From a virus, in IMG/VR virus record IMGVR_UViG_3300032607_000093, positions 1 to 48,386 of that record: a stretch of 48,386 bases of DNA, one strand, 5' to 3'. The position numbers and the translations under genes are program-made. The notes under the pieces were generated by a model. It searched no databases and was not told the origin of the DNA. It saw only the letters and a list, made by a program, of their open reading frames with translations. Positions 5,248-43,514 of the stretch are shown here, piece after piece (positions within the stretch are counted from its first letter, which is position 1; each line of letters starts with the position of its first letter).

Positions 5248-6765
5248 TTAGTAGTACGCAGCCTTCTTGCGATACGGCTTTAAAAAATTATCTTCCGGCT
5301 CGTCTGTCGGAAGTCGTAAAAACCCACCCTGCCGGAATCTTAACAGTGCAAGGGTTGTAGAGTCCACCAAGTCGTCATTAGTGCCAGCTGGAAAGTCGTT
5401 GCACTCTTCTATGACTTCCTTAGCCCACCTGCGGTCAGGAGCAAACACAATACCTGATGCAAACAGGTCAGACACTGCGTTCACACGCGCTATTTTGTCC
5501 TGTCCTTTGCCTGGCGTAAACTCCCCTACAGGCACGCCCATACGCCTAAACTCTTGGTAAAGCGCCGATCCGTTGGATTTTTTCTCCACCATGAACGCGT
5601 CTGGCTCCCACTCTCTATATTCTTCAAGCACCAGCTTCTTAAGATCTGGGTACTCCATCCTTTTCTTGATGGCGTTGAGTAAGATGATAGAAAAGTTCTG
5701 TGTTTCCTCGTTATAGAACACACCCCATGTTGTCAGTGCGTTATAGTCAGCCCTATTGTTAGCTTCTTGTGCGGCATCAAGCGACATAATGATAAATTCG
5801 CACTCGGGAGGGTCATCTTTCTCCCAAATTTTCCACCATTCTCTCTTAATTAGCGCCCCTTCTTCAGAAGTGGGCTGCTGCATGTACTGTGCATTCCAAT
5901 AACGAACGTCTAAAGCTGCTTTTTTAGCTAAAAGCTCTTCAACATCCCAAAATTCAGGCCAAAGTGCCGTGCCGTCGTCCTTAATAGCAGGAAATTCAAT
6001 CACTTCCCACGGATCTACGTCTTCATTTCGTTCAGTTTGCCGAACAATCATGCCTGTCAGGTCTAATTTAGACCAACGAGTCATCACAATAATGATTGCG
6101 CCACCCGGCATGAGACGCTGAAGAGGGCCAGACTGGAACCACTCCCAAGCAGGAAGGAAAACATCGGGCCGTCCAGTTTTAGCTTCTTGCTCTGAGTGTG
6201 GATCATCAATGATAAAGAGGTCAGCCCCGCGACCAGCCAAAGCTCCGCCAACACCAATTGCAAAATATTCGCCATTGAAGTTTGTCCCCCATCTTGAAGC
6301 AGATTTAGAGTCAGACTGCAGCTCTACTTGTGGAAATATGCCCTTATAAGCTTCCGATCCAACGAGGTTACGCACACGACGGCCAAAGTTAACAGCCAGA
6401 TCTGCCGTATGGGAACCCATGATGATTTTTTTCTGTGGATACTTACCCAAAAACCAGGCAGGAGCGAGATAGGATATAAGTTCTGATTTACCATGTCTCG
6501 GAGCGATATTAACAATAACCCGTTTCTTCTTACCTGCAGCGATATCTTCAAAAATTTGTATAAGTTTAAGGTGGTGAGGTCCCACTTTATAGCCCGGATA
6601 GACGTGGTTGATAAAATCAAGAAAGCTCTCCTTACCCAAACTCTGGGTCATCTGTGCATCATAAGTTTTTAGCAACTCAAGAGTACGCCTTTTCTTTTTG
6701 TCAGGCATCCCCGGCAACGCTTGTCGCAGCTTAAATAATGCTTCAGGCGTCAGAGTTTGATTCAT
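5248..6765 (-). CDS. terL: Terminase large subunit
   Basis: The 505-aa protein is the DNA-packaging motor. The N-terminal ATPase carries Walker A 'APRHGKS' (K93, S94), Walker B 'LFIIDDPH' (D187, D188) and a coupling motif 'MTRWSKLDLTG'. The C-terminal RNase H-like nuclease starts at 'IIMSLDAAQEANNRADYNA' (metal ligand D330), continues with 'FMVEKKSNGSAL', and has a late acidic 'NDDLVDSTTLALL'. Length and motif order are those of full-length large terminases, so it should be active. Its start overlaps the small subunit gene by 23 bases, the usual terS-terL arrangement. Confidence 0.95.
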   Translation of the reverse strand: MNQTLTPEALFKLRQALPGMPDKKKRRTLELLKTYDAQMTQSLGKESFLDFINHVYPGYKVGPHHLKLIQIFEDIAAGKKKRVIVNIAPRHGKSELISYLAPAWFLGKYPQKKIIMGSHTADLAVNFGRRVRNLVGSEAYKGIFPQVELQSDSKSASRWGTNFNGEYFAIGVGGALAGRGADLFIIDDPHSEQEAKTGRPDVFLPAWEWFQSGPLQRLMPGGAIIIVMTRWSKLDLTGMIVRQTERNEDVDPWEVIEFPAIKDDGTALWPEFWDVEELLAKKAALDVRYWNAQYMQQPTSEEGALIKREWWKIWEKDDPPECEFIIMSLDAAQEANNRADYNALTTWGVFYNEETQNFSIILLNAIKKRMEYPDLKKLVLEEYREWEPDAFMVEKKSNGSALYQEFRRMGVPVGEFTPGKGQDKIARVNAVSDLFASGIVFAPDRRWAKEVIEECNDFPAGTNDDLVDSTTLALLRFRQGGFLRLPTDEPEDNFLKPYRKKAAYY

Positions 6766-7315
6766 GCTTTAATACTTCGCGTGCTTCAACATCAATGACC
6801 TTATCTTCAAGACTTTGTAAGGTCTCCAAAAGTTCTTTTTCTACCTCTTCGGCAGATAAAATTCTGTGTGTAACTTCTGAGCGTTTCTTGAATGCGTCTA
6901 CACCATCTACTTCACCTAAATTTCTTAGTGCAGTAAGGCGTGCTTTAGGGTCGCGTGTATGTTCTATTTCATGCACAAGTTTATTAACTACATACAGTTT
7001 GAAATCAGACAACTCTTCTACGATAGAGACGTTCATCTGAGCAACCATACCTGCAAGAAACGCCAATGTTTCGTTAGGGTACTTAGCAAACTCAGGTCTA
7101 AATTTAGGATCAGACGCCATCTTACGAGCTAACTCTGTAGCTTCGGTTGCGTTATCTTTGGTAGGGGATATCTGCTGACCCGTAAGGTCAGACATAAGCT
7201 TTATGACATTGGCTCGCATCTGCAGTTCTTCAGCAGGCGACAGATCAGGGAACGCCTCTTTTGCGTTCTGTGGCAGAGGAATGTTTTCCTCAATGTGCGG
7301 TACTAATTCATCCAT
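6743..7315 (-). CDS. Probable terminase small subunit
   Basis: The 190-aa product is nearly all helical and charged, without a motif I can name. It is called from position: it directly precedes and overlaps the large terminase gene, and has the expected size for a DNA-recognition subunit. I place the start at the ATG at 7315 because a strong AAGGAG lies 11 bases upstream. An in-frame start further upstream at 7420 would add 35 residues with an unlikely composition and no ribosome site. It is the first gene of the leftward head operon, so its promoter should lie in the G-rich region to the right. Confidence 0.7.
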   Translation of the reverse strand: MDELVPHIEENIPLPQNAKEAFPDLSPAEELQMRANVIKLMSDLTGQQISPTKDNATEATELARKMASDPKFRPEFAKYPNETLAFLAGMVAQMNVSIVEELSDFKLYVVNKLVHEIEHTRDPKARLTALRNLGEVDGVDAFKKRSEVTHRILSAEEVEKELLETLQSLEDKVIDVEAREVLKHESNSDA

Positions 7316-7433
7316 GTCAGCGAAGACTCCTTCGACAGTTTGGGCAAATGTAACACATAAATATATCTTTGTGCAAGGGGAGGTTAGGAATCCTACCCGG
7401 GGGGTGTCTAGGATGTCCAAGACATGGGAGGGC

Positions 7434-8296: not shown

Positions 8297-8337
8297 GTGC
8301 CGTCATTTGTCCCACATGTGGTAATGGTGCGCGTGAT

Positions 8338-8359
8338 ACCAGTTATTTTCCGTCGCGCG
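8338..8359 (+). promoter_or_regulatory. ACCAGTTATTTT-CGCGCG element, copy 1
   Basis: This is the first of three copies of a block reading ACCAGTTATTTT, four variable bases, then CGCGCG. Each copy is followed by a GTGCGTGCG-like segment and, 61-64 bases from its start, by a CCCAC hairpin. It sits just downstream of a terminator and 178 bases before the gene at 8516. That is where a promoter should be, but it does not look like sigma70. A phage-specific promoter or a regulator site is inferred. Confidence 0.5.
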
Positions 8360-8450
8360 TATGAGTGCGTGCGAGCAGGCAAGGGCGCTAGATAGAGACC
8401 CACTCCCCAGTGAAATTTTACTTAAGAGTCCCACAAGCGTATTGTTATAT

Positions 8451-8515: not shown

Positions 8516-9172
8516 ATGGCAAAATCAGCCGCAAAAGTCGTGGAATCCGCCACGCAAGGTTCTTTTACCTCTTTAAAAGACTCAGCCTTCCAACAAGCAG
8601 GCGCGCACCAGACCTTGGAGTCAGTCGCCCGCTACGCTTTAACTCAGATTAAAGACTTCCCCAAAGAAGTCCCAGTCGAAGCTAAAGACGCTTTGTATGA
8701 AGGCTACCGCATGAAGTTTGATGCGCTTAGACCCGCTACCATGTATGCGGTTATCAATGGTCATTATGTACTTGCTAGTCAAGAGCACAAAATGGCTGAC
8801 AATGTAGAGAAGGTCAACATAGGTATTCCCTATGCTTACTCTTACTCAGCACAAGAGTTTGGTAAGTTGGCAAACACCAACCCAGCCCTCCACGCTCTTG
8901 TTAAAGAGATTAGAAGTAGTTGTTCTACTTATTGTTCGAATCGACTGGGCGACTTGAAAAGAGCCGCTACGAAGATTTTGAATGAGGGTAAAGAACGTCA
9001 GCGTGGAGTCAATAAAGACTTTGCTGAGTTTGTCGAAGCGTGGTTCAAAGAGACCGCACCAGACCGCCTAGTGTCAGCTAAGAATCGTGGAGACAAGTCG
9101 GCTGACGACAAACGGTTCGCTGAAGCTAAAGTTGCCTTCATGGTGAAGTGGAAACACTCAGACGCTAAGTAA
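8516..9172 (+). CDS. Paralogue 1 of a duplicated early protein, unknown
   Basis: This 218-aa protein shares roughly half of its positions with the 201-aa product at 9406 over about 140 residues. The best-preserved block is 'QEFGKLANTNPALH' followed by 'YCSNRLGDLKRAATKIL'. The middle contains 'RPATMYAVINGHYVLAS'. The C-terminal 60 residues are Lys-rich and diverge from the paralogue. No known domain is recognised and no catalytic motif is evident. The basic helical C-terminus could bind nucleic acid. It forms its own transcription unit between the upstream module and a strong terminator, which suggests high or separately timed expression. GGAG lies 9 bases before the ATG. Confidence 0.8.
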   Translation: MAKSAAKVVESATQGSFTSLKDSAFQQAGAHQTLESVARYALTQIKDFPKEVPVEAKDALYEGYRMKFDALRPATMYAVINGHYVLASQEHKMADNVEKVNIGIPYAYSYSAQEFGKLANTNPALHALVKEIRSSCSTYCSNRLGDLKRAATKILNEGKERQRGVNKDFAEFVEAWFKETAPDRLVSAKNRGDKSADDKRFAEAKVAFMVKWKHSDAK

Positions 9173-9222: not shown

Positions 9223-9238
9223 CGCCTGCTATTTTGAA

Positions 9239-9260
9239 ACCAGTTATTTTCTGTCGCGCG
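9239..9260 (+). promoter_or_regulatory. ACCAGTTATTTT-CGCGCG element, copy 2
   Basis: This is the second copy of the block seen at 8338, extended on the left by a TATTTTGAA stretch shared with copy 3. It lies directly after a terminator and 167 bases before the paralogue start at 9406. The next segment, GGGAGTGCGTGCGTGA, also matches copy 1 closely. Confidence 0.5.
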
Positions 9261-9288
9261 CGGGAGTGCGTGCGTGACCCGTGAAATC

Positions 9289-9328
9289 CTTAAATAGTGT
9301 CCCACTCCCCAGTGGAACTTTACTTAAG
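9289..9328 (+). promoter_or_regulatory. Nested leader hairpin with CCACT/AGTGG core
   Basis: The inner stem CCACT (9302-9306) and AGTGG (9311-9315) encloses a CCCC loop. An outer CTTAA (9289-9293) / TTAAG (9324-9328) pair flanks it. It is the counterpart of the hairpin in the other leaders, placed 62 bases after the start of the upstream ACCAG element. Confidence 0.6.
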
Positions 9329-9349
9329 ACACCACATCTGTCAAGATAC

Positions 9350-9380
9350 ACCATCACTTAGGAAATAACTAGGTGATGGT
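9350..9380 (+). promoter_or_regulatory. 12-bp leader hairpin upstream of paralogue 2
   Basis: ACCATCACTTAG (9350-9361) pairs with CTAGGTGATGGT (9369-9380) with one T-G wobble and a 7-base GAAATAA loop. It buries an in-frame ATG at 9373 in the stem and leaves the GGAGG-preceded ATG at 9406 free, which supports 9406 as the real start. It could be an operator or an RNA-level switch. Confidence 0.75.
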
Positions 9381-9405
9381 TTCATTAACTTTATCGGAGG
9401 ACATT

Positions 9406-10011
9406 ATGTCTACATTTTCATCATTGAGGGATCTCGGCTATCAACAGGCAGGGACAGGGGACAGTTTAGATTCACAGGCAGAGTATGCCTTGGCTAACAT
9501 CACAGGGTTCCCCGAGGAAATTTCTAGCGAAGCAAGGGCGATGATCTATGATGGTTATAGATTACGTCACAGCGAACGCTATCCCGCTACTGTCTATGCT
9601 GTGGTCAATGACCATTATGTTCTAGCATCACCTGAACAGGTCAAAAACGCCAAGGTAGAGAAAATCGAAATTGGTGTTGCGTATGCCTTTGCATATTCAC
9701 AGCAAGAATTCGGTAAACTGAAAAATACGAACCCTGCCTTGCATGGGATCATAAGAGAAATACGGGATGCTGTGGGTGACTACTGTTCTAACCGATTAGG
9801 TGATCTAAAACGTGCCTGCAATAAAATACTCGCCAAGCGAAATGGCAAAACAGTATCACGCAAAACGCTAGATTTTGCCAAATCAATGTCTACGACATTT
9901 GAAGCTCAAGAGAAATCTGTGAAAGTGAAACAGGCCAAGGGTGACACCACAGCGAACAGCGCCAAGTATGCCCTTGCTGTAAAAGCATTTTGGTTGACGT
10001 ACAACAAATAA
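9406..10011 (+). CDS. Paralogue 2 of a duplicated early protein, unknown
   Basis: The 201-aa product begins MSTFSSLRDLGYQQAG; the start is chosen for the GGAGG 6 bases upstream. It aligns with the product at 8516 from about residue 3 to residue 145. Shared blocks include 'PATVYAVVNDHYVLAS', 'QQEFGKLKNTNPALH' and 'YCSNRLGDLKRACNKIL'. The C-termini differ. Identity near one half at protein level with little DNA identity shows an old duplication or independent acquisition of two family members. As with the first copy, a private upstream module and terminator flank it. Function is unknown. Confidence 0.8.
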   Translation: MSTFSSLRDLGYQQAGTGDSLDSQAEYALANITGFPEEISSEARAMIYDGYRLRHSERYPATVYAVVNDHYVLASPEQVKNAKVEKIEIGVAYAFAYSQQEFGKLKNTNPALHGIIREIRDAVGDYCSNRLGDLKRACNKILAKRNGKTVSRKTLDFAKSMSTTFEAQEKSVKVKQAKGDTTANSAKYALAVKAFWLTYNK

Positions 10012-10022
10012 TGTTGTGACCC

Positions 10023-10058
10023 AAGCCCCTGATCAGAAATGGTCAGGGGCTTTTTTTT
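10023..10058 (+). terminator. Rho-independent terminator after paralogue 2
   Basis: AAGCCCCTGA (10023-10032) pairs with TCAGGGGCTT (10043-10052) around a 10-base loop, running into eight Ts. It lies 11 bases after the stop codon. Confidence 0.93.
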
Positions 10059-10074
10059 GTCCGTGTTATTTGAA

Positions 10075-10096
10075 ACCAGTTATTTTTCGACGCGCG
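10075..10096 (+). promoter_or_regulatory. ACCAGTTATTTT-CGCGCG element, copy 3 (no gene downstream)
   Basis: This third copy keeps the core block, the left-hand TATTTGAA extension and the CCCAC hairpin 64 bases after its start (10139-10152, CCCACGCATACGTGG). No open reading frame follows. Instead come a direct repeat and the hexamer cluster. Any transcript started here would be noncoding and would run into the candidate origin. Confidence 0.5.
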
Positions 10097-10170
10097 CGAG
10101 AGGGCGCGCAAAGCATGGACAAGGAGCTTAATTAGCATCCCACGCATACGTGGAATTCATTGCATCGCCT

Positions 10171-10235
10171 ACCGTTTTCAGAACTGATAGGGCTAAAAAT
10201 GTGGTTGCGTCATTTACCGTTTTCTTAACTGATAG
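10171..10235 (+). repeat. Pair of 20-bp direct repeats, 45 bp apart
   Basis: ACCGTTTTCAGAACTGATAG at 10171-10190 recurs at 10216-10235 with 18 of 20 positions identical (TT for AG in the centre). The pair sits directly before the hexamer cluster at 10248. Such spaced repeats are common at replication origins and operator regions. Confidence 0.75.
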
Positions 10236-10247
10236 CTTTGTAGTTTT

Positions 10248-10584
10248 GTTCTACTTTTCCTAGAACATTGTACTGCGTAGTGTTTGAGAATAGAACAGAA
10301 AAACTGAGTATCCATGCGGGTTGCGAGCATTCTGTTCTAATGTTCTACGGTTTTGGCAGGATATGGGTGTTTTTAAGAAAAACTGTGCGAGCAAGGTCTT
10401 CTCAGCCAATGCAGAAAAAATCATCAAAAAGAGGAGCATATATCCTTTTTCCTTAGAACATTAGAACATCTATATATTTATTATATAAATACTTAATAAA
10501 AACAACAAGTTAGCTCACTCAGACCCCCCCTTTTCCGTTCTATAAGCACAGTTTCAAAAGTAGAACAGACTAGAACATTAGAAC
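10248..10584. other. Candidate replication origin: TAGAAC/GTTCTA hexamer cluster with AT-rich tract
   Basis: TAGAAC occurs at 10261, 10291, 10454, 10462, 10561, 10571 and 10579, and its inverse GTTCTA at 10248, 10334, 10342 and 10537. That is eleven copies in 337 bases, against about 0.2 expected in random sequence. Most continue with A, giving TAGAACA, and three copies form TAGAACATTAGAACA-type pairs spaced 8 bases apart. Between them, 10468-10510 is nearly pure A/T (TATATATTTATTATATAAAT), a plausible unwinding element. Iterons plus an AT-rich tract in a gene-free region is the classic origin layout. Regulator-binding sites are the alternative. Confidence 0.6.
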
Positions 10585-10648
10585 AAAACTAAAACCGCCC
10601 AACCCTCGCCTCCAACTGCCGTCATAGATTACTTTTTTTATTAAGAGC

Positions 10649-10677
10649 TTGACTCAAAGGTAAAGTTATGGTATACT
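10649..10677 (+). promoter_or_regulatory. Sigma70-type promoter P1
   Basis: TTGACT (-35, 10649-10654) and TATACT (-10, 10672-10677) are separated by 17 bases, close to consensus. ACTCAA (10652-10657) and TTGAGT (10677-10682) form an inverted repeat straddling the promoter, a possible operator. It should drive the genes starting at 10789. Confidence 0.88.
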
Positions 10678-10722
10678 TGAGTTTGGGTCGGGAGGTAGAT
10701 GGCAAGCGGCCCTAATCAGCAT

Positions 10723-10738
10723 CCCACGCATCAGTGGG
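10723..10738 (+). promoter_or_regulatory. CCCAC...GTGGG leader hairpin
   Basis: CCCAC pairs with GTGGG around GCATCA and is followed by TTTTGTTTCAACCAA. Almost the same leader follows promoter P2 at 12365. It lies between the promoter and the ribosome site of the gene at 10789. Confidence 0.7.
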
Positions 10739-10788
10739 TTTTGTTTCAACCAATCGGTATCCTTTGCAGGAACCACAAGGAGATGGAA

Positions 10789-11118
10789 ATGATAGTATCG
10801 TTTATGAGAGCATTACCTGTTGAGCAGGTAGAGAAGGCAACAGACTGGATGAAAGCTATGCCTCGTTCAGTCCGTAAGACTTTGCGTCTTACAAAGTCCC
10901 GTCAACCCAATGTCAATACCCACGATGGCGTGGATGACTATTTGGCAGTTGATTACCGCATTGACACGTACCACACACAGAACCTTGAGTTCCTTGATCG
11001 TGAGTTCGGCTTCGATGAGTTCAACGACATCGACGATGAGCATGAGGGCTTGACGATCACTTCTGCTATGTCAGAGGTTGAGACGTTTGAGTACCTCACA
11101 GGCTACGACATCATCTAA
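10789..11118 (+). CDS. 109-aa acidic early protein, unknown
   Basis: I choose the ATG at 10789 because AAGGAG lies 6 bases upstream. An in-frame ATG at 10699 would read through the leader hairpin, although it also has a GGGAGG nearby. The product starts MIVSFMRALPVEQVEKATDW, has a short basic patch ('RSVRKTLRLTKSRQP') and then a strongly acidic C-terminal half containing 'DREFGFDEFNDIDDEHEG'. Highly acidic small early proteins are often DNA mimics or inhibitors of host enzymes, but nothing here proves that. It is the first gene behind promoter P1. Confidence 0.75.
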   Translation: MIVSFMRALPVEQVEKATDWMKAMPRSVRKTLRLTKSRQPNVNTHDGVDDYLAVDYRIDTYHTQNLEFLDREFGFDEFNDIDDEHEGLTITSAMSEVETFEYLTGYDII

Positions 11119-12289: not shown

Positions 12290-12319
12290 CTTGACTCAGA
12301 GGTCAAGTTGTGTTATACT
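12290..12319 (+). promoter_or_regulatory. Sigma70-type promoter P2 with palindromic operator
   Basis: TTGACT (12291-12296) and TATACT (12314-12319) are spaced by 17 bases. The -35 is embedded in a perfect inverted repeat CTTGAC (12290-12295) / GTCAAG (12302-12307). The spacer is nearly the same as in P1, so both promoters probably answer to the same regulator. It drives the DUF3150-like/MoxR/VWA operon. Confidence 0.9.
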
Positions 12320-12364
12320 TATAGCTAGTAGGGAGAGTTTTTTAACTACCCTGCTACTTAGCGA

Positions 12365-12380
12365 CCCACGTATCAGTGGG
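12365..12380 (+). promoter_or_regulatory. CCCAC...GTGGG leader hairpin behind P2
   Basis: CCCAC pairs with GTGGG around GTATCA, followed by ATTTGTTTTCAACCAAAGG and the ribosome site of the gene at 12408. The flanking sequence matches the P1 leader, so it is a duplicated 5' leader. Confidence 0.7.
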
Positions 12381-12407
12381 ATTTGTTTTCAACCAAAGGA
12401 GAGAATC

Positions 12408-13322
12408 ATGGAGTTACACAAGCCCGATCACCTCATCAGCCTTGCCTCATCAGCAGTCCTCGTGAGCGTGGATGTCAGTGTATGGTCAGCGACGAAGCAA
12501 GACCGAGTCATCAGCAATGAAGTTACTGCATCAAAGAATGCAGACAAGAGCGCGGGGCGCTACGTCAAGAACCTCTTGGCAGATCACCCACGCCACAAGG
12601 CAATCGTCAACTATCGTCAGACTATCTATAACTGGGTCAAGCGCAGGACTTATAGATGGAACAACTCACAGGACTTGTTGCCGTCTGTGGATATGCCCAA
12701 GTTCAAGCAAGAGTATCACGCACATCAGATGGCATTCAGTACCCTGCTTGGTGACTTCATCCTTGCCTACGATAGCATTGTCTCAGACATGGCGTTCAAG
12801 CAAGGCGATATGTTCGACCGCAATGACTACCCCGCTAAAGAGCAACTGGTATCTAAGTTTGGCGTCCAACTCTTTGTGTCGGAAGTTCCCATGTCTGATT
12901 TCAGATGTGGTATTGCGTCAGACATCGCGGAAGATTTGTTTGCTACATACAGCCAACAAGCACAGGAAATAGTGTCTCACGTGATGGTGGAACAGCAATC
13001 AAGGTTCATCGAAGTTATGAAATCAATCAGCCATTGCTGTGGTGTAGATGATGTTGGCATTGACGATAACACAGGAGAGACCAAGACCAAGAAACGCAAG
13101 ATCTACGACACGACCATATTGAAAGCCAAAGAGATGTGCGATATATTCAAGGGTTTCAATCTCAGCGGTGATCCCGAGCTGGAACAGGCAAGGGCATCGC
13201 TAGAGAAAGCATTGAGTGGTGTATCGGCAGAGGACATTCGTGAGTCCGATGCGATACGTCACGCAGTGAAAGAGGACATTGACGACATCCTCGGCAAGTT
13301 CAGTTCGTTCAAGTGTGTGTAA
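12408..13322 (+). CDS. DUF3150-like protein of the MoxR-VWA cassette
   Basis: The start is the ATG at 12408 with AAAGGAGAG directly upstream; the frame is open further left only through the promoter and leader. The 304-aa product has a Lys-rich middle ('KTKKRKIYDTT') and long helices. Its N-terminal third contains 'SVWSATKQDRVISNEVTASKNADKSAGRYVKNLL'. Size, fold type and place immediately before a MoxR-type ATPase and a VWA protein match phage DUF3150 proteins as I know them, but no catalytic motif confirms this. It probably works with the next two large genes as partner or substrate adaptor. Confidence 0.6.
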   Translation: MELHKPDHLISLASSAVLVSVDVSVWSATKQDRVISNEVTASKNADKSAGRYVKNLLADHPRHKAIVNYRQTIYNWVKRRTYRWNNSQDLLPSVDMPKFKQEYHAHQMAFSTLLGDFILAYDSIVSDMAFKQGDMFDRNDYPAKEQLVSKFGVQLFVSEVPMSDFRCGIASDIAEDLFATYSQQAQEIVSHVMVEQQSRFIEVMKSISHCCGVDDVGIDDNTGETKTKKRKIYDTTILKAKEMCDIFKGFNLSGDPELEQARASLEKALSGVSAEDIRESDAIRHAVKEDIDDILGKFSSFKCV

Positions 13323-16847: not shown

Positions 16848-17870
16848 ATGCAAGGACTGAACTACAAGAGACTCGATGGCATCGCAAATAGCATCTCACC
16901 CTACCGTGGGTCACTAAACAGATTTCCTATTGGTGATCGCAGACACAACCACAAATACTTTTTTGTGCGAGATGATGACGGACAGCGCGTGTTTGATATC
17001 GTGCATGGTCAAAATTGGAAACACATTACTCTGACGGAGGCAGAGCATGACGAGTGTGCCAAGCAAAATATGCCACGACTTAACAAGTATCAAGATCACA
17101 GTACTAACAAGTGGGATTACTATCGCTACGAAGTGTATCCAAACATACTTGGCATTGTGCGACCTGATAATACGTTTGAGTTTACTGGCGATAACTATGG
17201 ACAGGGTGATCGAGGCATCTTGTCTAGCTATGGGCATGGGTGGTTATCTACAGACTCACGTAGGGGTGGGATGATATGGACAGGGAAACTCACTGATGGG
17301 ACTCACGGTGCATTGCCGATCTACCATGGTATGCGTGTCAATTGTGAAACTATGCAACCAATCAAACCAATCACGGTCATTGGAAGGAAGGTTGATCGCA
17401 AGGTGGGCAAAGACTTACTTACTAACTACGCAGACTTCTATGCCACGACTGAGGTGATGACCAAGGCTATGGACTACGAGGTGTTTGTAAGAACTATGAG
17501 CGATGTGATGAACGACCACATGGGTGGAGACATTGCTCAAGACCACACAGTGTACTCAGCGAAAGCCAAGGAGATCATGGAGATCGCACCGCTTGACTCA
17601 GCAATGCTTTACATGATGGGTTGGGATATTGGTGGTATGCGTTGGAACTTGCGTAGATTTATGGACACACAGTTCTCAAGATATAGCTCACACGAGGACA
17701 CACCGCACACGATGTTCTTGAATCTCAAGCGCAGACTGAACAAGGAGATATACAAAGCGCATGAGCAAGTGTTCAAGAAGGTTGAGTATGTTAATGGAGA
17801 GATGTATCCGCCTAGCGAGTGGGGCTACACAGTCATGGTTGATGGAGTGGAGGTGAAACAGTATGACTAA
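16848..17870 (+). CDS. 340-aa early protein, unknown
   Basis: The protein starts MQGLNYKRLDGIANSISPYRGSLNRFP. It has a mixed alpha/beta N-terminal half rich in Tyr, Gly, Asp and His ('YNILGIVRPDN'-like strands, 'SSYGHGWLSTDSRRGGMIWTG'), and a helical C-terminal half ending in a strand pair. No Walker, nuclease or methyltransferase motif was found. GGAG lies 6 bases before the ATG. It overlaps the following gene by 8 bases. It may belong to a family restricted to aquatic phages, but I cannot name one. Confidence 0.72.
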   Translation: MQGLNYKRLDGIANSISPYRGSLNRFPIGDRRHNHKYFFVRDDDGQRVFDIVHGQNWKHITLTEAEHDECAKQNMPRLNKYQDHSTNKWDYYRYEVYPNILGIVRPDNTFEFTGDNYGQGDRGILSSYGHGWLSTDSRRGGMIWTGKLTDGTHGALPIYHGMRVNCETMQPIKPITVIGRKVDRKVGKDLLTNYADFYATTEVMTKAMDYEVFVRTMSDVMNDHMGGDIAQDHTVYSAKAKEIMEIAPLDSAMLYMMGWDIGGMRWNLRRFMDTQFSRYSSHEDTPHTMFLNLKRRLNKEIYKAHEQVFKKVEYVNGEMYPPSEWGYTVMVDGVEVKQYD

Positions 17871-18072
17871 ACAGATAACGATTGAAATCAAGGATGTCTT
17901 TGGGCAGTTGAAGTATTACCCAGTGTGTAAGAACGCATTGGTTTTTGCCAAGATTGCAGGTACTAAAACTTTGAGTGAAGTAAACCTTAGACGAATCCTT
18001 GAGCTTGGCTACGAGATAGCCACATACGAGCAACGATATGTATTACCCGAAACTTTAAGGAGAGAGAAATGA
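17863..18072 (+). CDS. 69-aa small basic protein, unknown
   Basis: The product opens MTKQITIEIKDVFGQLKYYPVC with a beta hairpin-like start, then helices around 'LSEVNLRRILELGYEIA'. The first six residues overlap the previous gene and the stop overlaps the next start by 4 bases (ATGA). The short length and basic helix would suit a small DNA-binding or antirestriction protein, but no signature supports a call. Confidence 0.68.
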   Translation: MTKQITIEIKDVFGQLKYYPVCKNALVFAKIAGTKTLSEVNLRRILELGYEIATYEQRYVLPETLRREK

Positions 18073-19034
18073 TGAGTAGATATTATCTTGATGGATTTGG
18101 TTCTGAGGATGAGTTGAATGAGTTGCTTGCCTCAGATGCACTCCCACTGGTGCGTGAGTTGCAATTCAAGTACAACTTGAAAGTCATGGGAAAAGTAATG
18201 AATGTGGGCTACCCACAAACAGATAAAGATTCTTACATGATGTGTTACCCCAATGGGCTGGCTGTGTGTAAGGTGTGGACAACAAAGGTAGGTGGCGCTA
18301 AGAACGATCAGTTGGAGTTTTGTTTCCGTACACCTTTCTATATCAAGTCTCGTGGGTCTGATCAAAATGATAGAGAGACTATCCGTAGTACAAAACTTTC
18401 ATCATTGATGGCAGTACTAAAGCGTCAGGACGTTGTGCGTGATAAGAAATTAATCATGGATAACAAAGTCAAACAAGTAAGGCTGGGCGCTCATGCTCTA
18501 CGCAAAGCGATGGGTGAAAGCGATAAGCAGAACTCTTTTACGCCTGACGAAATTCATGCGATGTTAGCTACCTTACTAGGGGAAAGTACTGATGGAATTA
18601 TTCCTGTTCTAGACCTAAATAAATGTAAAAATACACTTGACATTTACAAAGAAGCTGATAGGATACGAGATATAAAGAGAGAAGAATCCAAGCGGTTCTT
18701 CAAGAATCCTTTCTATCTCATTGGTATAGACGACTACAAGCACTTACTCATAGGCAAATTCAAGATGACCATACTGCACAGTGATACGACCAAGATTGAG
18801 TACGAGATCATCGAAGACTTCAAACGAGTCAAGACGATTGAGGAGTACCCCGAGCTAGTCCCATTGATGACAATGATGAAAGTCTCTTACGAAGCTAAGG
18901 AAGTTCGTAGGCTTGGCGTGTTGAACTTTCCGATTATGGACAAGTATGACGAAGGTCTTGATGCGGCTTTCTTTTACAGTAATTCGCCTACGAACTATGA
19001 GCAATCATGGATGGCTACCCCATGCCCCACTTGA
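18069..19034 (+). CDS. 321-aa early protein, unknown
   Basis: AAGGAGAG lies just before two tandem ATGs; either gives MSRYYLDGFGSEDELNELL. The first third contains 'MCYPNGLAVCKVWTTK', predicted strands. The middle is Lys/Arg-rich and helical ('KVKQVRLGAHALRKAM'). The C-terminal third mixes both. No catalytic motif is seen. Together with the two genes before it, it forms a set of uncharacterised proteins between the MoxR-VWA cassette and the replication genes. Confidence 0.7.
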   Translation: MMSRYYLDGFGSEDELNELLASDALPLVRELQFKYNLKVMGKVMNVGYPQTDKDSYMMCYPNGLAVCKVWTTKVGGAKNDQLEFCFRTPFYIKSRGSDQNDRETIRSTKLSSLMAVLKRQDVVRDKKLIMDNKVKQVRLGAHALRKAMGESDKQNSFTPDEIHAMLATLLGESTDGIIPVLDLNKCKNTLDIYKEADRIRDIKREESKRFFKNPFYLIGIDDYKHLLIGKFKMTILHSDTTKIEYEIIEDFKRVKTIEEYPELVPLMTMMKVSYEAKEVRRLGVLNFPIMDKYDEGLDAAFFYSNSPTNYEQSWMATPCPT

Positions 19035-20447: not shown

Positions 20448-20636
20448 ATGCCGAGACCTAAACCCCCTGCGCCCCTCATAGGGAGACAAGTGCGCATGAC
20501 CGACAAGCAGTGGTTAATCCTCAACCAGCTTGGCGGTGCGGAATGGTTGCGAACACTCTTAGAGAAGAAAGCGCCATTCTCTGCGTCGTACTATAAAAAA
20601 CTTTTAGAGAAGCCAAATGAAACTAATAACGATTGA
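20448..20636 (+). CDS. 62-aa small protein before DNA polymerase, unknown
   Basis: The product, MPRPKPPAPLIGRQVRMTDKQW and onward, has a Pro-rich start followed by a short helical domain 'WLILNQLGGAEWLRTLLEKK' that resembles a small ribbon-helix or CopG-like plan, with 'IGRQVRMTDKQWLIL' as the possible strand-helix. The ribosome site is weak. It overlaps the polymerase start by 20 bases. A regulator role is only a guess. Confidence 0.6.
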   Translation: MPRPKPPAPLIGRQVRMTDKQWLILNQLGGAEWLRTLLEKKAPFSASYYKKLLEKPNETNND

Positions 20637-22491
20637 CTTTGAGACCTACTACGATAGCAAGATCAAGCTAGGCTTCAAGCATCAGACCACTGAGGAATAC
20701 ATACGCGACAAGCGTTTTGAAGTTATCGGTGTGGGCGTGAAGGTAGACGATGAGCCAACTGTCTGGGTATCAGGCGGTAGGGATAAGATAAAAGAATATC
20801 TAACGTCGCTAGACTGGGGCAGCAGCCCGCTTCTGTGCCACAACACCCTGTTCGATGGAGCTATTCTTAGCTGGCACTACGGTATCACGCCCGCGTTCAT
20901 GCTCGACACATTGTGCATGGCGAGAGCGATTCATGGCGTTGAGGCAGGTGGCTCGCTCAAGGCGTTGGCTGACCGCTACGAGATTGGAGTTAAGGGCGAG
21001 GAAGTGATTGCCGCTGAAGGCAAGGCACGACTCGACTTCAACAAAGAAGAGCTTGCGCGATACGGAGAGTATTGTAAGAACGACGTTGACCTGACTCTCA
21101 AACTGTTTAAGATACTGCACAAAACATTCCCCGATGACGAGCTAGCGCTAATCGACATGACAGTGCGGATGTTCACGCATCCTGTGTTTCTTGTTGATGA
21201 TGCGCTACTGCAAGAACGCTACGAAGAACTCAAAGAAGAGAAACAGCTATTGCTTGAGGGCTTGATGGAGAAACTTAACTGTGAAACCGCAGAGGCGGTA
21301 CGGAAAAAGCTAGCCAGTAATAAACAGTTTGCTGAATTGTTGGTCGAGCGCGGGGTTGAGGCTCCGATGAAAGAAAGCAAAACCACAGGCAAGCAGACCT
21401 ATGCGTTGGCAAAGAACGACGAAGGTTTTATTAAACTCACCGAACACGATGACCCACTTATCCAACAACTATGTGCTGTGCGACTTGGCACAAAATCTAC
21501 CATTGAAGAATCAAGGATCGAGAGATTCATTGACGTTGGCAAACGCAACAAAGGACGCCTGCCTATCCCACTCAAATACTACGGAGCGCATACTGGACGC
21601 TGGGCGGGAAGTGATAAGGTTAACTTCCAAAACCTTCCAAGTAGAGATAAGAAAAAGAAAGCCCTAAAGAATGCAGTCGTAGCGCCTGATGACCACATTG
21701 TTATCAACTGTGACTCTTCTCAGATTGAGGCTAGGGTTCTCGTCTGGTTGGCTGGACAGGATGATATGGTTGAGCAGTTCCGCAAGGGGGAGGATGTCTA
21801 CTCCCTGTTTGCAACCATGATATACGAGCGCCCCATAACCAAGGCTAACCCAGTCGAACGCTTTGTGGGTAAGACCTGCATCTTGGGTCTAGGCTACGGG
21901 ACTGGCAAATTAAAACTTCAGCACACGCTTAAGACAACGCCACCCGGCGCAGCCGTCACTGAAGCCGAGGCTGAAGAGTTTGTTAAAGCATACCGCGACA
22001 CCAATGATAAGGTGATTGATCTATGGGGAGAAGGCGACGCGGTGATCAAAGACCTAGCCAACTGGGATGCCAAGATCAAGCCCTACTACTATGGTAAACA
22101 CAAGTGCCTCAAGATTACTAAAGAAGGCGTACACCTGCCTAATGGGTTGATGATCCGATACCCTGATCTGAGACTCAACACTGAAGAGTCTAAATCTAGA
22201 TATGAATACAAGTCGCGTAAGGGTCCTGTGTCTCTATGGGGCGGCTCGCTAGTTGAGAACGTAGTTCAAGCCTTGGCGCGAATCATCGTGGGAGAGCAGA
22301 TGATCAAGATTAACGAGAAGTATCGCGTTGCTCTGACTGTCCATGATGCGGCAGTGATCGTGGTTCCCGAGGCGGAGAAGGATGAAGCTCTTGAATATAT
22401 CGTCGAGTGCATGTCTACACCACCCGCATGGGCTAGGGGTTTACCCGTGACTTGCGAAGCAAAGTACGCACAGACCTATGGCGAATGTTAA
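20617..22491 (+). CDS. polA: Family A DNA polymerase with 3'-5' exonuclease
   Basis: The 624-aa enzyme has a proofreading domain with ExoI 'TIDFETYY' (D7, E9), ExoII 'LCHNTLFDGA' (D80) and ExoIII 'YGEYCKNDVD' (Y152, D156). The polymerase domain has motif A 'CDSSQIEARV' (D366), motif B 'RFVGKTCILGLGYG' (R415, K419, L423, Y427) and motif C 'LTVHDAAVIV' (H576, D577). No 5'-3' exonuclease domain is present, as usual for phages. The residue matching E. coli Pol I F762 is Leu (L423), and the Glu usual after the motif C Asp is Ala (A578). It is the replicative polymerase of this phage. Confidence 0.96.
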   Translation: MKLITIDFETYYDSKIKLGFKHQTTEEYIRDKRFEVIGVGVKVDDEPTVWVSGGRDKIKEYLTSLDWGSSPLLCHNTLFDGAILSWHYGITPAFMLDTLCMARAIHGVEAGGSLKALADRYEIGVKGEEVIAAEGKARLDFNKEELARYGEYCKNDVDLTLKLFKILHKTFPDDELALIDMTVRMFTHPVFLVDDALLQERYEELKEEKQLLLEGLMEKLNCETAEAVRKKLASNKQFAELLVERGVEAPMKESKTTGKQTYALAKNDEGFIKLTEHDDPLIQQLCAVRLGTKSTIEESRIERFIDVGKRNKGRLPIPLKYYGAHTGRWAGSDKVNFQNLPSRDKKKKALKNAVVAPDDHIVINCDSSQIEARVLVWLAGQDDMVEQFRKGEDVYSLFATMIYERPITKANPVERFVGKTCILGLGYGTGKLKLQHTLKTTPPGAAVTEAEAEEFVKAYRDTNDKVIDLWGEGDAVIKDLANWDAKIKPYYYGKHKCLKITKEGVHLPNGLMIRYPDLRLNTEESKSRYEYKSRKGPVSLWGGSLVENVVQALARIIVGEQMIKINEKYRVALTVHDAAVIVVPEAEKDEALEYIVECMSTPPAWARGLPVTCEAKYAQTYGEC

Positions 22492-23296: not shown

Positions 23297-23544
23297 CTAA
23301 AGATGAAATCATTGAGATGGCTAGACAATCTGGTCTTGTAGGCAAACCAACTTACACGGAAGGGCTTGTAGCCTTTGCAAATCTTGTGGCTGAACACATC
23401 TACGCTAAACAATTAAAACTACCCGAACCAAGATTAACGGGCAAGTTTTCAATCACCGCAGGGAAGTTTAAATGTACAGGTTGCACGGGTACATGGACAG
23501 ACCGTGAAGATGCCAAACACCATTCATGTAAGGATTATCAATGA
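23293..23544 (+). CDS. 83-aa modular early protein with zinc-finger-like tail
   Basis: The first 40 residues, [15 protein letters not shown] and onward with '[19 protein letters not shown]', are a helical module found at the N-terminus of many small phage proteins. The C-terminal part carries '[21 protein letters not shown]', a C-x2-C and H-H-x-C set that could bind zinc. The two halves look like separate modules joined together. ATGA overlaps on both sides. Confidence 0.68.
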
Positions 23545-23915
23545 CTAGAGAAGAATTATTAGACCATTTTGCAATTGAAGCTATGAAAGCCATTCAGCAT
23601 CAAGAAGGCATGATCAATGTAATGAACGTAGCAACACGTGCTTACGGGATTGCAGAAAGAATGCTTTTAAGCAGACAGGCGGTGCTTGATGAATGGGCAT
23701 TAAAAGAAGCAGTTTCTGTTGATGGTATTGAACTGCTTGAATTAACTGTAAGAACTGCGCATTGTTTAAAAGCAGAAGAAATCTACACAGTCACGCAGTT
23801 ACTTGGGTGCACCGAGCAACGCTTGCTTAAGACTCCAAATTTGGGACGCAAAAGCCTAAGAGAAATCATTGAACAGTTGGAAGCTCGTGGCTTGAAGTTG
23901 AGGGGGCGAGCATGA
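23541..23915 (+). CDS. Phage protein with RNA polymerase alpha-subunit C-terminal domain
   Basis: Residues 1-60 form a helical phage module ('[14 protein letters not shown]...[12 protein letters not shown]'). Residues 63-121 are a convincing RNA polymerase alpha-CTD: '[23 protein letters not shown]' then '[29 protein letters not shown]'. Against the E. coli alpha-CTD as I remember it, 34 of 55 aligned residues are identical without gaps. Residues used for UP-element DNA contact are kept at R71 (R265), C75 (C269), G102 (G296), K104 (K298), S105 (S299) and E108 (E302); N268 is replaced by H74. No alpha N-terminal assembly domain is present, so it cannot be a normal subunit. It may bind promoter DNA or regulators in place of the host domain. 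Confidence 0.88.
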
Positions 23916-25628: not shown

Positions 25629-27185
25629 ATGAATGTAGTACAGGACACAGTTGTCCACATGGTAATTCCGTCTAGCGAGTTGCAATTTCTCGTAGGACAT
25701 ATAGACCGATGCGAGGTGCTGAAAGACAATGGCACAACAGCAGAGGTAGCGGTGTACTGGGGCGTACCCGAGATGCAACGGCTAGTGCGCGTCTATGGAG
25801 ATGCTCCTAACCCAATGCTCAAAGAGTACAACTGGCCCGGAATGTACCAACCATTCGCTCACCAAAAAGTTACATCGTCGTTTCTCTCCCTAAGAGACCG
25901 CTGTTTCTGTTTCAACGAAGCTGGCACAGGTAAGACCTCCTCAGTCATTTGGGCGGCAGACTACCTGATGCAGTTGGGGATAGTCAAACGAGTCCTAGTC
26001 GTCTGTCCCTTGTCCATCATGTACTCCGCTTGGCAAGCTGACATCTTTAAAACTGCCATGCACAGAACGGTCGGCGTAGCCTACGGAGACGCATCCAAGC
26101 GCAAGAAGATCATCAACGGAGAGTATGAATTTGTCATCATCAACTTCGATGGTGTAGGAATAGTTCAAGAAAATATTAGTAAAGTAGGGTTTGACCTAAT
26201 TGTTATTGATGAAGCCAACGCATATAAAACAGTATCGACAAAACGTTGGAAGACCTTGGCTAAATTGATCACCCCTTCGACCCGCTTATGGATGATGACA
26301 GGCACACCCGCCTCGCAGTCTCCACTGGATGCGTTCGGCTTAGCAAAGCTAGTCAACCCCGCTGGTGTACCCAAGTACTTTACGGCTTGGAGAGACAAGG
26401 TTATGCAGCCCATCAGCAAGTTTAAATGGATACCAAGGGCTATTGCTCAACAAGAAGTATTCAGCGCTCTACAGCCCGCTATACGCTTTGAGAAGGCAGA
26501 TTGCTTAGACCTGCCTGAGTTGGTGTACCAGACCCGTGAAGTGCCACTAAGTCCCCAGGTGAATAGATATTACCGTGAGTTAAAGAACCAACTGCTGATA
26601 GAAGCAGCGGGTGAGCAGATCAGTGCTGTTAACGCGGCAGCCAAGCTGAGTAAGTTGTTGCAGTTGTCGGGTGGAGCAATCTATACCGACACAAAGGAGG
26701 TGGTGGAGTTTGACGTGTCACCACGCCTGAATGCGCTGATGGAGGTGTTAGATGAGACACAGCACAAGGTGATTGTGTTTGTCCCGTTCCGGCACACCAT
26801 CGTACTAGTAGCACGTCATTTAAGTTCACAAGGAGTAGCCAATGAAGTTATTAACGGAGATGTACCTGCAAGGGAGCGGTCTGAGATCATCAACCGATTC
26901 CAAACACAAACTGATCCAAGAGTTTTAGTTATTCAACCACAAGCCGCATCGCATGGCGTCACGTTAACTGCCGCAGACACAGTTGTGTTTTGGTCTCCCG
27001 TTATGAGCGTCGAGACATACCTGCAGTGCATAGCGCGTATCGACCGAGTCGGTCAGAAGAACAGCATGACAGTTGTCCATCTGCAAGGCTCTGAAGCTGA
27101 ACGCAAGGTCTATCAGATGTTGCAAGGCAAGGTAGATTCGCATGAAAGATTGGTTGATCTGTACAAAGAGGAGTTAGGGATATGA
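25629..27185 (+). CDS. SNF2/DEAD-type superfamily 2 helicase
   Basis: The 518-aa protein has an N-terminal extension of about 75 residues and a first helicase lobe with Walker A 'NEAGTGKTSS' (K102), 'LVVCPLSIMYSAWQAD' and a DExx box 'VIDEANAYK' (D194, E195). Motif III is 'MMTGTPASQSP'. The second lobe has 'VIVFVPFRHT', a 'DVPARERSEIINRFQ' region and motif VI 'QCIARIDRVGQKN'. The RxGQ ending and 'CPLSIMYSAW' place it near SNF2-like phage helicases. It probably translocates on DNA for replication or recombination. It overlaps the next gene by 4 bases. Confidence 0.93.
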   Translation: MNVVQDTVVHMVIPSSELQFLVGHIDRCEVLKDNGTTAEVAVYWGVPEMQRLVRVYGDAPNPMLKEYNWPGMYQPFAHQKVTSSFLSLRDRCFCFNEAGTGKTSSVIWAADYLMQLGIVKRVLVVCPLSIMYSAWQADIFKTAMHRTVGVAYGDASKRKKIINGEYEFVIINFDGVGIVQENISKVGFDLIVIDEANAYKTVSTKRWKTLAKLITPSTRLWMMTGTPASQSPLDAFGLAKLVNPAGVPKYFTAWRDKVMQPISKFKWIPRAIAQQEVFSALQPAIRFEKADCLDLPELVYQTREVPLSPQVNRYYRELKNQLLIEAAGEQISAVNAAAKLSKLLQLSGGAIYTDTKEVVEFDVSPRLNALMEVLDETQHKVIVFVPFRHTIVLVARHLSSQGVANEVINGDVPARERSEIINRFQTQTDPRVLVIQPQAASHGVTLTAADTVVFWSPVMSVETYLQCIARIDRVGQKNSMTVVHLQGSEAERKVYQMLQGKVDSHERLVDLYKEELGI

Positions 27186-28486: not shown

Positions 28487-28801
28487 ATGTCACGGACATA
28501 TAGCGAAGCTTTTTTGATTGAGTTGCACAAGGCTAACCCCAACAGGGCTGGCATTGCATTGGCACTCGCTTGCGTGAATGCAAATCTCCCCGCAAAGTAT
28601 GTAGCCAATGCGTTAGAGGTAACTCGCATGACGGTCTTCAGTTGGTTCCGTGGCAAACCTTTGCGCCACAACAACCTTGTTAAGGTTGAGACACTGACTG
28701 ACCTGATTGAGAGTGACACCGCCAAGGGACTTCTTCCAGCGAAGAATACTGCAATGGCTAAAAACTACCTTGAAGATATGGTCGGGAGAAAATTTGACTA
28801 A
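28487..28801 (+). CDS. HTH protein, probable DNA-binding regulator
   Basis: The 104-aa product opens MSRTYSEAFLIELHKANPNRAG and carries a helix-turn-helix: 'LPAKYVANALEVTRMTVFSWFRGKPL', with 'VTRMTVFSWFRG' as the recognition helix. The design resembles Cro/C1-type or small phage regulators, and I recognise the 'VTRMTV(F/Y)SWFRG' core from uncultured phages. AAGGAACAGG precedes the ATG. It could bind the inverted repeats at promoters P1 and P2. A terminator-like hairpin follows in the next gap. Confidence 0.82.
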   Translation: MSRTYSEAFLIELHKANPNRAGIALALACVNANLPAKYVANALEVTRMTVFSWFRGKPLRHNNLVKVETLTDLIESDTAKGLLPAKNTAMAKNYLEDMVGRKFD

Positions 28802-43075: not shown

Positions 43076-43514
43076 CTAAATGCTCCTTGCGGTAATCGTC
43101 GTACCGTTCAAAAAATATGTTTTTCCACATGTCTGGAAGAAACTCTTTTGCTTTCTCGGGGCCTACACAAACATACACCATGTAAGCCACAATATTCCCT
43201 GCCGCATACCTAAGGCCGTGCGCTATCTCAATTCCGTGTGCGTCTTTTTCACGCTCAAATTTATTAGCCGTTTGATAGGCAGAAACAACAGTCAACCACA
43301 TCGGCAAAATCTGCTCTTGAATACTACGATAGAACGGGTTAGCCGGCAAATAAACTAAGCAGATTAAAAACGCGTTATTGATTTCGTCTTCAGTAGCTTC
43401 TTTGTCTTTGTCAACAAGGTCGTCCCATAAATGCGATAAATCTACAAACATGCGAAACGCATTCAGCGCATCTTGATTGCCCCCAAACCACTCTAATTTG
43501 CCTTCGTTGTTCAT
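43059..43514 (-). CDS. 151-aa helical protein of the virion operon, unknown
   Basis: The protein is all-helical, with 'FRMFVDLSHLWDDLVDKDKEATEDEINNAF', a central hydrophobic part 'FLICLVYLPANPFY' and 'GLRYAAGNIVAYMVYVCVGP'. The 'DDLVDKD' acidic motif superficially resembles the Asp-rich motif of isoprenoid synthases, but the second motif is absent, so I do not propose that activity. Both ends overlap neighbours (4 and 17 bases). It may be an assembly factor for the large proteins. Confidence 0.65.
   Translation of the reverse strand: MNNEGKLEWFGGNQDALNAFRMFVDLSHLWDDLVDKDKEATEDEINNAFLICLVYLPANPFYRSIQEQILPMWLTVVSAYQTANKFEREKDAHGIEIAHGLRYAAGNIVAYMVYVCVGPEKAKEFLPDMWKNIFFERYDDYRKEHLDVDSK

Follow-up and report, generated by a model that had tools for sequence, protein, structure and literature searches.

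A conserved, lineage-variable repeat cluster as a probable iteron-type replication origin in a phage lineage without cultured close relatives

The repeat cluster and its conservation

The window analyzed here, i.e., the whole stretch of DNA under study, is the complete IMG/VR virus record IMGVR_UViG_3300032607_000093 (48,386 bp), which derives from a lytic-looking tailed phage. Our subject is a non-coding interval at 10248-10584 that is flanked by conserved genes and that carries 11 copies of the hexamer TAGAAC/GTTCTA. To its left lie two tandem paralogous genes, which we call par1 and par2, and to its right a promoter that reads into the early genes (Table 1). We interpret this interval as probably being the phage's replication origin, of the lambda-type iteron kind.

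The initial annotation had described 11 hexamers in both orientations, and their positions were verified: seven read TAGAAC on the plus strand and four read GTTCTA, and together they form the densest hexamer cluster of the window. No second hexamer in the window reaches 11 copies per 337 bases; the best unrelated hexamer, AGCAGC, has 9 copies at 44909, within the called open reading frame 43511-45181. Over the entire window, TAGAAC occurs 37 times, compared with 22.8 copies expected from shuffled sequences, and therefore the 26 copies outside the cluster are at chance level. A composite 15-mer, TAGAACATTAGAACA, occurs exactly three times within the cluster (10333-10347 on the minus strand, 10454-10468 and 10571-10585 on the plus strand), with no exact copy elsewhere in the record. 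The functional unit is better given as the 7-mer TAGAACA than as the hexamer; the 7-mer fits 10 of the 11 copies, the exception being TAGAACG at 10537.

Beside the iterons lies the most A/T-rich 36-bp stretch of the entire window. The tract is real, but its earlier description as 43 bases of near-pure A/T was overstated, since positions 10467-10509 are 86% A/T. The two iteron pairs that enclose the spacer fall within the arms of a long interrupted palindrome, and in several relatives, e.g., L142, the palindromy reaches past the iterons. We also considered whether the spacer forms a structured RNA or a cruciform. This was rejected, as folding is mostly no stronger than that of shuffled sequences (z of about 0), with only L142 and L174 near -4, and no Rfam match or tRNA was found in the spacer.

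Relatives were gathered by scans with the proteins that neighbor the cluster, and the conservation figures refer to 24 distinct related loci that carry the TAGAAC repeat. Across these loci, the 11 hexamers hold their position and orientation, and columns match at 95% within the iterons versus 63% in the other columns between them; the corresponding values are 69% for the A/T tract and 64% for the spacer. The conservation that the initial annotation had called for is thereby found. The clearest conserved element consists of the reverse pair, the 106-bp spacer, the forward tandem pair and the A/T tract.

Relatives at a greater distance carry other units in this interval, namely TGGAACA, CAGAACA/CGGAACA, TTGGAATTT, TTGGAAT/C, TGACACA, and GGAACT or TGAACT. 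In 21 of the 22 fetched relatives, the interval bounded by the par gene(s) on one side and the U343/AAA/VWA genes on the other contains a lineage-specific repeat; the remaining relative, G008, has no clear short repeat and carries instead a 21-bp inverted repeat, TTGTGCAAACCATGCAAGCAT. Despite these changes of unit, the layout is constant: a reverse pair, a spacer, a forward tandem pair, an A/T tract, further copies and a sigma-70-type promoter. The forward tandem pair is followed directly by the A/T tract in 44 distinct related sequences with differing repeat units. Each genome has one cluster, with 5-13 exact copies, and at most 3 copies occur in any other 500 bp (13 relatives and the window). 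Because the units are lineage-specific, a host-encoded binder is unlikely, and a phage-encoded binder would explain such units. If this reading is right, the relatives offer, as a natural series, at least seven different iteron specificities that share one scaffold.

This turnover also bears on a different function, in which the array would be a packaging (pac/cos) or partition site bound by the terminase small subunit or a ParB-like protein. Clustered inverted and direct repeats are known at packaging and partition sites, and the array has the terminase genes at a distance of 3-4 kb on its left. However, TerL (75-84%) and the putative TerS (49-67%) are conserved across lineages whose repeats are completely different, packaging has no evident use for a melting tract beside a tandem pair, and the proteins scanned included no ParA, integrase or repressor. 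We consider a packaging or partition site highly improbable.

Table 1. Coordinates of the repeat cluster, its flanking elements and selected genes
Feature	Positions	Strand	Remarks
TerL	5248-6765		
Probable TerS	6743-7420		Adjacent to TerL, co-conserved
par1	8516..9172	+	Tandem paralogue of par2, 47.5% identical to it
par2	9373..10011	+	Directly upstream of iterons; leading initiator candidate; start codon uncertain, internal ATG possible
Intrinsic terminator	10023..10052	+	After par2; left border of interval
Iteron 1 (TAGAAC; 7-mer TAGAACA)	10248..10253	-	Aligned hexamer in 14/24 relatives
Iteron 2	10261..10266	+	22/24 relatives
Iteron 3	10291..10296	+	22/24 relatives
Long interrupted palindrome	10333..10468		18-nt arms 10333-10350 and 10451-10468, 94% complementary, containing both iteron pairs
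Iteron 4	10334..10339	-	Outer member of reverse pair TAGAACATTAGAACA (10333-10347); 24/24 relatives
Iteron 5	10342..10347	-	Inner member of reverse pair; 22/24 relatives
Spacer, 106 bp	10348..10453		Separates the reverse pair from the forward pair; most relatives have 101-126 bp
Iteron 6	10454..10459	+	First of forward tandem pair (10454-10468); 23/24 relatives
Iteron 7	10462..10467	+	Second of forward tandem pair, 8-bp period; 17/24 relatives
A/T-rich tract	10469..10502		Candidate DNA unwinding element, directly 3' of forward pair; 94% A/T over 34 bases
Iteron 8	10537..10542	-	Variant TAGAACG; hexamer in 22/24 relatives
Iteron 9	10561..10566	+	20/24 relatives
Iteron 10	10571..10576	+	First of second forward pair (10571-10585); 15/23 relatives
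Iteron 11	10579..10584	+	Second of second forward pair; 23/24 relatives
Sigma-70-type promoter	10649..10677	+	TTGACT-17-TATACT, right edge, reads into early genes; consensus match only; conserved in most relatives
U343 gene	12291-13322		
Family A (PolA-family) polymerase	20617-22491		
SNF2-type helicase	25629-27185		
Small helix-turn-helix (HTH) protein	28487-28801		
DUF927/primase-helicase protein	28918-31773		

Origin function and the candidate initiator

The cluster is a conserved, origin-like element of a known kind, the iteron origin, and its variant feature is the turnover of the unit on a fixed scaffold. Three features of iteron origins are found here: clustered short repeats, an adjoining A/T tract, and repeats that are conserved above their surroundings in fixed places and orientations. 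The initial annotation had also named three ways in which an origin at this site could fail, and the proposal survives two of them because the repeats are not equally common elsewhere and are strongly conserved in relatives. The third, GC skew, is ambiguous. The skew minimum sits where gene orientation turns from leftward to rightward. Being confounded by gene direction, it can neither place nor rule out an origin and is only loosely consistent with the cluster. What the sequences show is a dense set of repeats, kept in position, in one cluster per genome, with a constant architecture and a unit that changes between lineages; beyond conserved putative binding sites, we infer origin function, the identity of the initiator, the opening of the tract and the loading of the replisome.

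We propose an order of steps modeled on ori-lambda, in which iteron-bound O dimers open an adjacent A+T region (PMC5043065). Several copies of a phage-encoded initiator, most likely from par2 with its paralogue par1, would bind the 7-bp iterons TAGAACA, chiefly at the reverse pair and the first forward pair. The initiator complex might then fold or wrap the 106-bp spacer, and the A/T tract beside the forward pair would open. The primase-helicase and the family A polymerase could be loaded at the opened tract.

It might seem that the window lacks a recognizable initiator, as the initial annotation had stated. This holds for family searches, in which no protein of the record matched a known initiator. 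However, the strongest candidate was overlooked, namely the tandem paralogues upstream. Immediately upstream of the iterons, the constant positional neighbor is a gene of about 180-260 codons that occurs singly or as two tandem paralogues. The par family (62 representative sequences; proteins of about 210 aa) has no informative match in Pfam or PHROGs, and no homologue was found in isolate phages, plasmids or bacterial genomes. Its AlphaFold model is confident (predicted local distance difference test, pLDDT, 90) and consists mostly of helices; neither PDB nor BFVD gave a fold that matches it at E<=0.001.

A pair of relatives, G012 and G013, is informative about the initiator. Most of their proteins are 80-100% identical, including the HTH protein (100%), the ATPase (96%), the primase-helicase (96%), TerL (94%) and the polymerase (91%). 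By contrast, no similarity is seen between their genes upstream of the iterons, which lie inside a block of about 1.1 kb of non-aligning DNA with highly similar flanks. Their iterons also differ, with GGAACT in 8 copies and TGAACT in 2 in G012, versus 3 and 8 in G013, while the spacer between the iteron pairs is nearly the same. This pattern, which was seen in one case only, would be the expected trace of an initiator that was replaced along with its sites. Other genes diverge in this pair as well: between U343 and the polymerase, one is 47% identical and one is unmatched.

Our tentative candidate for the initiator is thus the product of par2, immediately upstream, together with that of its paralogue par1; we assign this slightly less than an even chance given the single replacement case, the other early genes that differ there, and gene trees that do not single out par. 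With somewhat less confidence still, we consider that par1 and par2 may represent a new initiator family with a fold unseen in solved structures. The gene and the 7-bp iterons of these uncultured phages would then be exchanged jointly, the gene by replacement and the scattered repeats by changing in concert, while the origin architecture otherwise stays fixed.

Several observations weigh against the origin and its proposed initiator. The GC-skew minimum falls at 7,135 in the window, and 1.5-4 kb to the left of the cluster in seven relatives that close on themselves. The repeats are spaced at 8 and 10 bp, unlike the helical phasing of plasmid iterons. The par fold is without a known DNA-binding domain, and an upstream par homologue is undetectable in 5 of the 22 relatives. 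In gene trees of up to 37 relatives, the par tree requires no fewer motif switches than the trees of U343, AAA and VWA, and par proteins can be similar in pairs with differing motifs (e.g., L110/L141, 66%). Neither these trees nor a comparison of par identity between same-motif and different-motif pairs singled out par as the specificity factor.

Some of these points would be accommodated if the interval is an origin whose initiator is another fast-changing early protein (e.g., 16848-17870 or 18069-19034) or the primase-helicase, with par being, for instance, a regulator or a nucleoid-type protein. The further genes that differ strongly between G012 and G013, the relatives without detectable par homologues, and motif switches that track par no better than other genes agree with this idea. 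Against it, the gene of about 180-260 codons is the sole constant positional partner of the iterons, and the replaced block beside the iterons in G012 and G013 contains exactly this gene. We therefore regard an initiator encoded elsewhere as somewhat unlikely. Two specific proteins were set aside. The small HTH protein was ruled out as the specificity factor, because G012 and G013 differ in their iteron unit but encode homologues of it that are 100% identical. U343 has weak but repeated matches to DUF3150 and stands beside the MoxR ATPase and VWA genes, which suggests that it belongs to a MoxR-type module. The structure model of the G013-type upstream protein was discarded, since its confidence is too low (pLDDT 45); the order of helices and hairpin alone resembles par, and the profile comparison was insignificant.

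The replacement in G012 and G013 would also fit multi-copy operators that change together with an adjacent regulator gene. The repeats would then be operators through which a phage transcription regulator controls the rightward promoter, and perhaps the par unit, with no origin present. In its favor, a strong sigma-70-type promoter follows the last iteron at 65 bp on the right, and on the left the par transcription unit terminates shortly before the cluster. However, all lineages retain the A/T tract that adjoins the forward pair, even though the promoter is about 150 bp away, and the reverse pair and long spacer persist as well. Similar promoters elsewhere (e.g., 12291-12319) have no iteron cluster, and there is one cluster per genome. 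Operators without an origin are thus improbable in our view.

Flanking elements and gene content

Several further repeats surround the probable origin. A 40-bp element, TGAAACCAGTTATTTT..CGCGCGCG, occurs three times: before par1 (8334-8373), before par2 (9235-9274) and before the iteron interval (10071-10110). The second and third copies, and likely also the first, are placed after an intrinsic terminator. The element resembles a repeated transcription-start module, and therefore transcription from the left may enter the origin interval. A palindromic leader hairpin (e.g., CCCACGCATCAGTGGG) is found at 8389-8427, 9291-9329, 10129-10164, 10713-10748 and 12365-12380; it precedes several rightward units and borders the iteron interval on the left and the right. 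Its arms co-vary in relatives, as judged by eye (TTCCAC/GTGGAA, TTTCAC/GTGAAA and CTGACA/TGTCAG). To the left of the iterons, 10160-10235 contains two copies of a 31-bp direct repeat, TTGCATCGCCTACCGTTTTCAGAACTGATAG, 45 bp apart, and this repeat is found again in relatives in at least one copy. L186 and L189 carry an inserted small open reading frame (MLLKPIKSQSTDIITHDALSK...) that separates the promoter from the iterons, upstream of the homologue of the gene at 10699-11118.

Related contigs that close on themselves have end overlaps of 122-127 bp and sizes of 62-66 kb, which implies that about 14 kb is missing from the window. Comparison with the relative G002 identifies the missing part as a leftward gene block, so the window holds all of the rightward early genes. 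Among them are the genes for the family A polymerase, the DUF927/primase-helicase protein, the SNF2-type helicase, a MoxR-like ATPase and a VWA protein. The phage belongs to a lineage without a cultured close relative: the nearest named isolates share only about 35% with the window's polymerase and about 23% with its ATPase, and isolate phages gave no match for par2 or U343. A 124-aa phage protein at 23541-23915 contains the C-terminal domain of the bacterial RNA polymerase alpha subunit (Pfam E 4e-19) and is a possible transcription take-over factor; none of the other fetched genomes was found to encode a homologue.

Comparison with known systems

One of the closest known systems is ori-lambda, in which O dimers on inverted iterons open a neighboring 40-bp A+T region (PMC5043065). 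The cluster resembles it in having inverted iterons beside an A+T stretch of about 40 bp. However, lambda iterons are 19 bp long and lie inside gene O, whereas the units of the window are 7 bp long, non-coding, and arranged in pairs of 8-bp period with a long spacer. No homologue of lambda O was found, and par1 and par2 match no family. The cluster also recalls the iteron plasmids RK2, F, P1 and R6K with their Rep initiators, which have replicon-specific direct repeats, an A+T region and, as a plasmid feature, a nearby initiator gene (PMC5043065). No winged-helix initiator of the Rep type was detected in Pfam, PHROGs or PDB/BFVD folds at E<=0.001, nor was a plasmid homologue.

With respect to DnaA-dependent oriC, no DnaA box (TTATCCACA, with at most 1 mismatch) occurs between 6.5 and 12.6 kb. 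The oriC DnaA-trio, 3'-[G/A]AT-5' (PMC10797057), does have a parallel in the tracts of several relatives, where runs of CTA/TTA triplets follow the forward pair on one strand only (L044, L128, L137, L142, L146, L174, L192 and L257). Among 25 distinct tracts, 9 have a longest run of 4-7 triplets, and none of these runs lies on the opposite strand. Unlike in oriC, the box flanking the tract is a phage iteron rather than a DnaA box, and DnaA-trio runs are absent from the window: a search of its own tract gave a longest run of 2, the same as in the close relative L176, and the trio was rejected there.

The variability of the unit is reminiscent of the RepA-iteron replicons of PLE/ICP1, where iterons and replication modules change between close relatives, escape from an origin-directed nuclease being one driver, and where a cognate initiator is a feature of PLE (PMC8263062). 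In contrast to PLE, a satellite with three semi-palindromes of about 30 bp, the 7-bp units here belong to the phage itself, and no RepA homologue was found. If our interpretation is correct, an uncultured phage lineage gains both an origin and a candidate for its initiator, a protein with no known fold. It then becomes possible to test how the many dispersed copies of a binding site change in step with the initiator, and whether satellites or origin-directed nucleases drive this change, as has been shown for PLE/ICP1 (PMC8263062).
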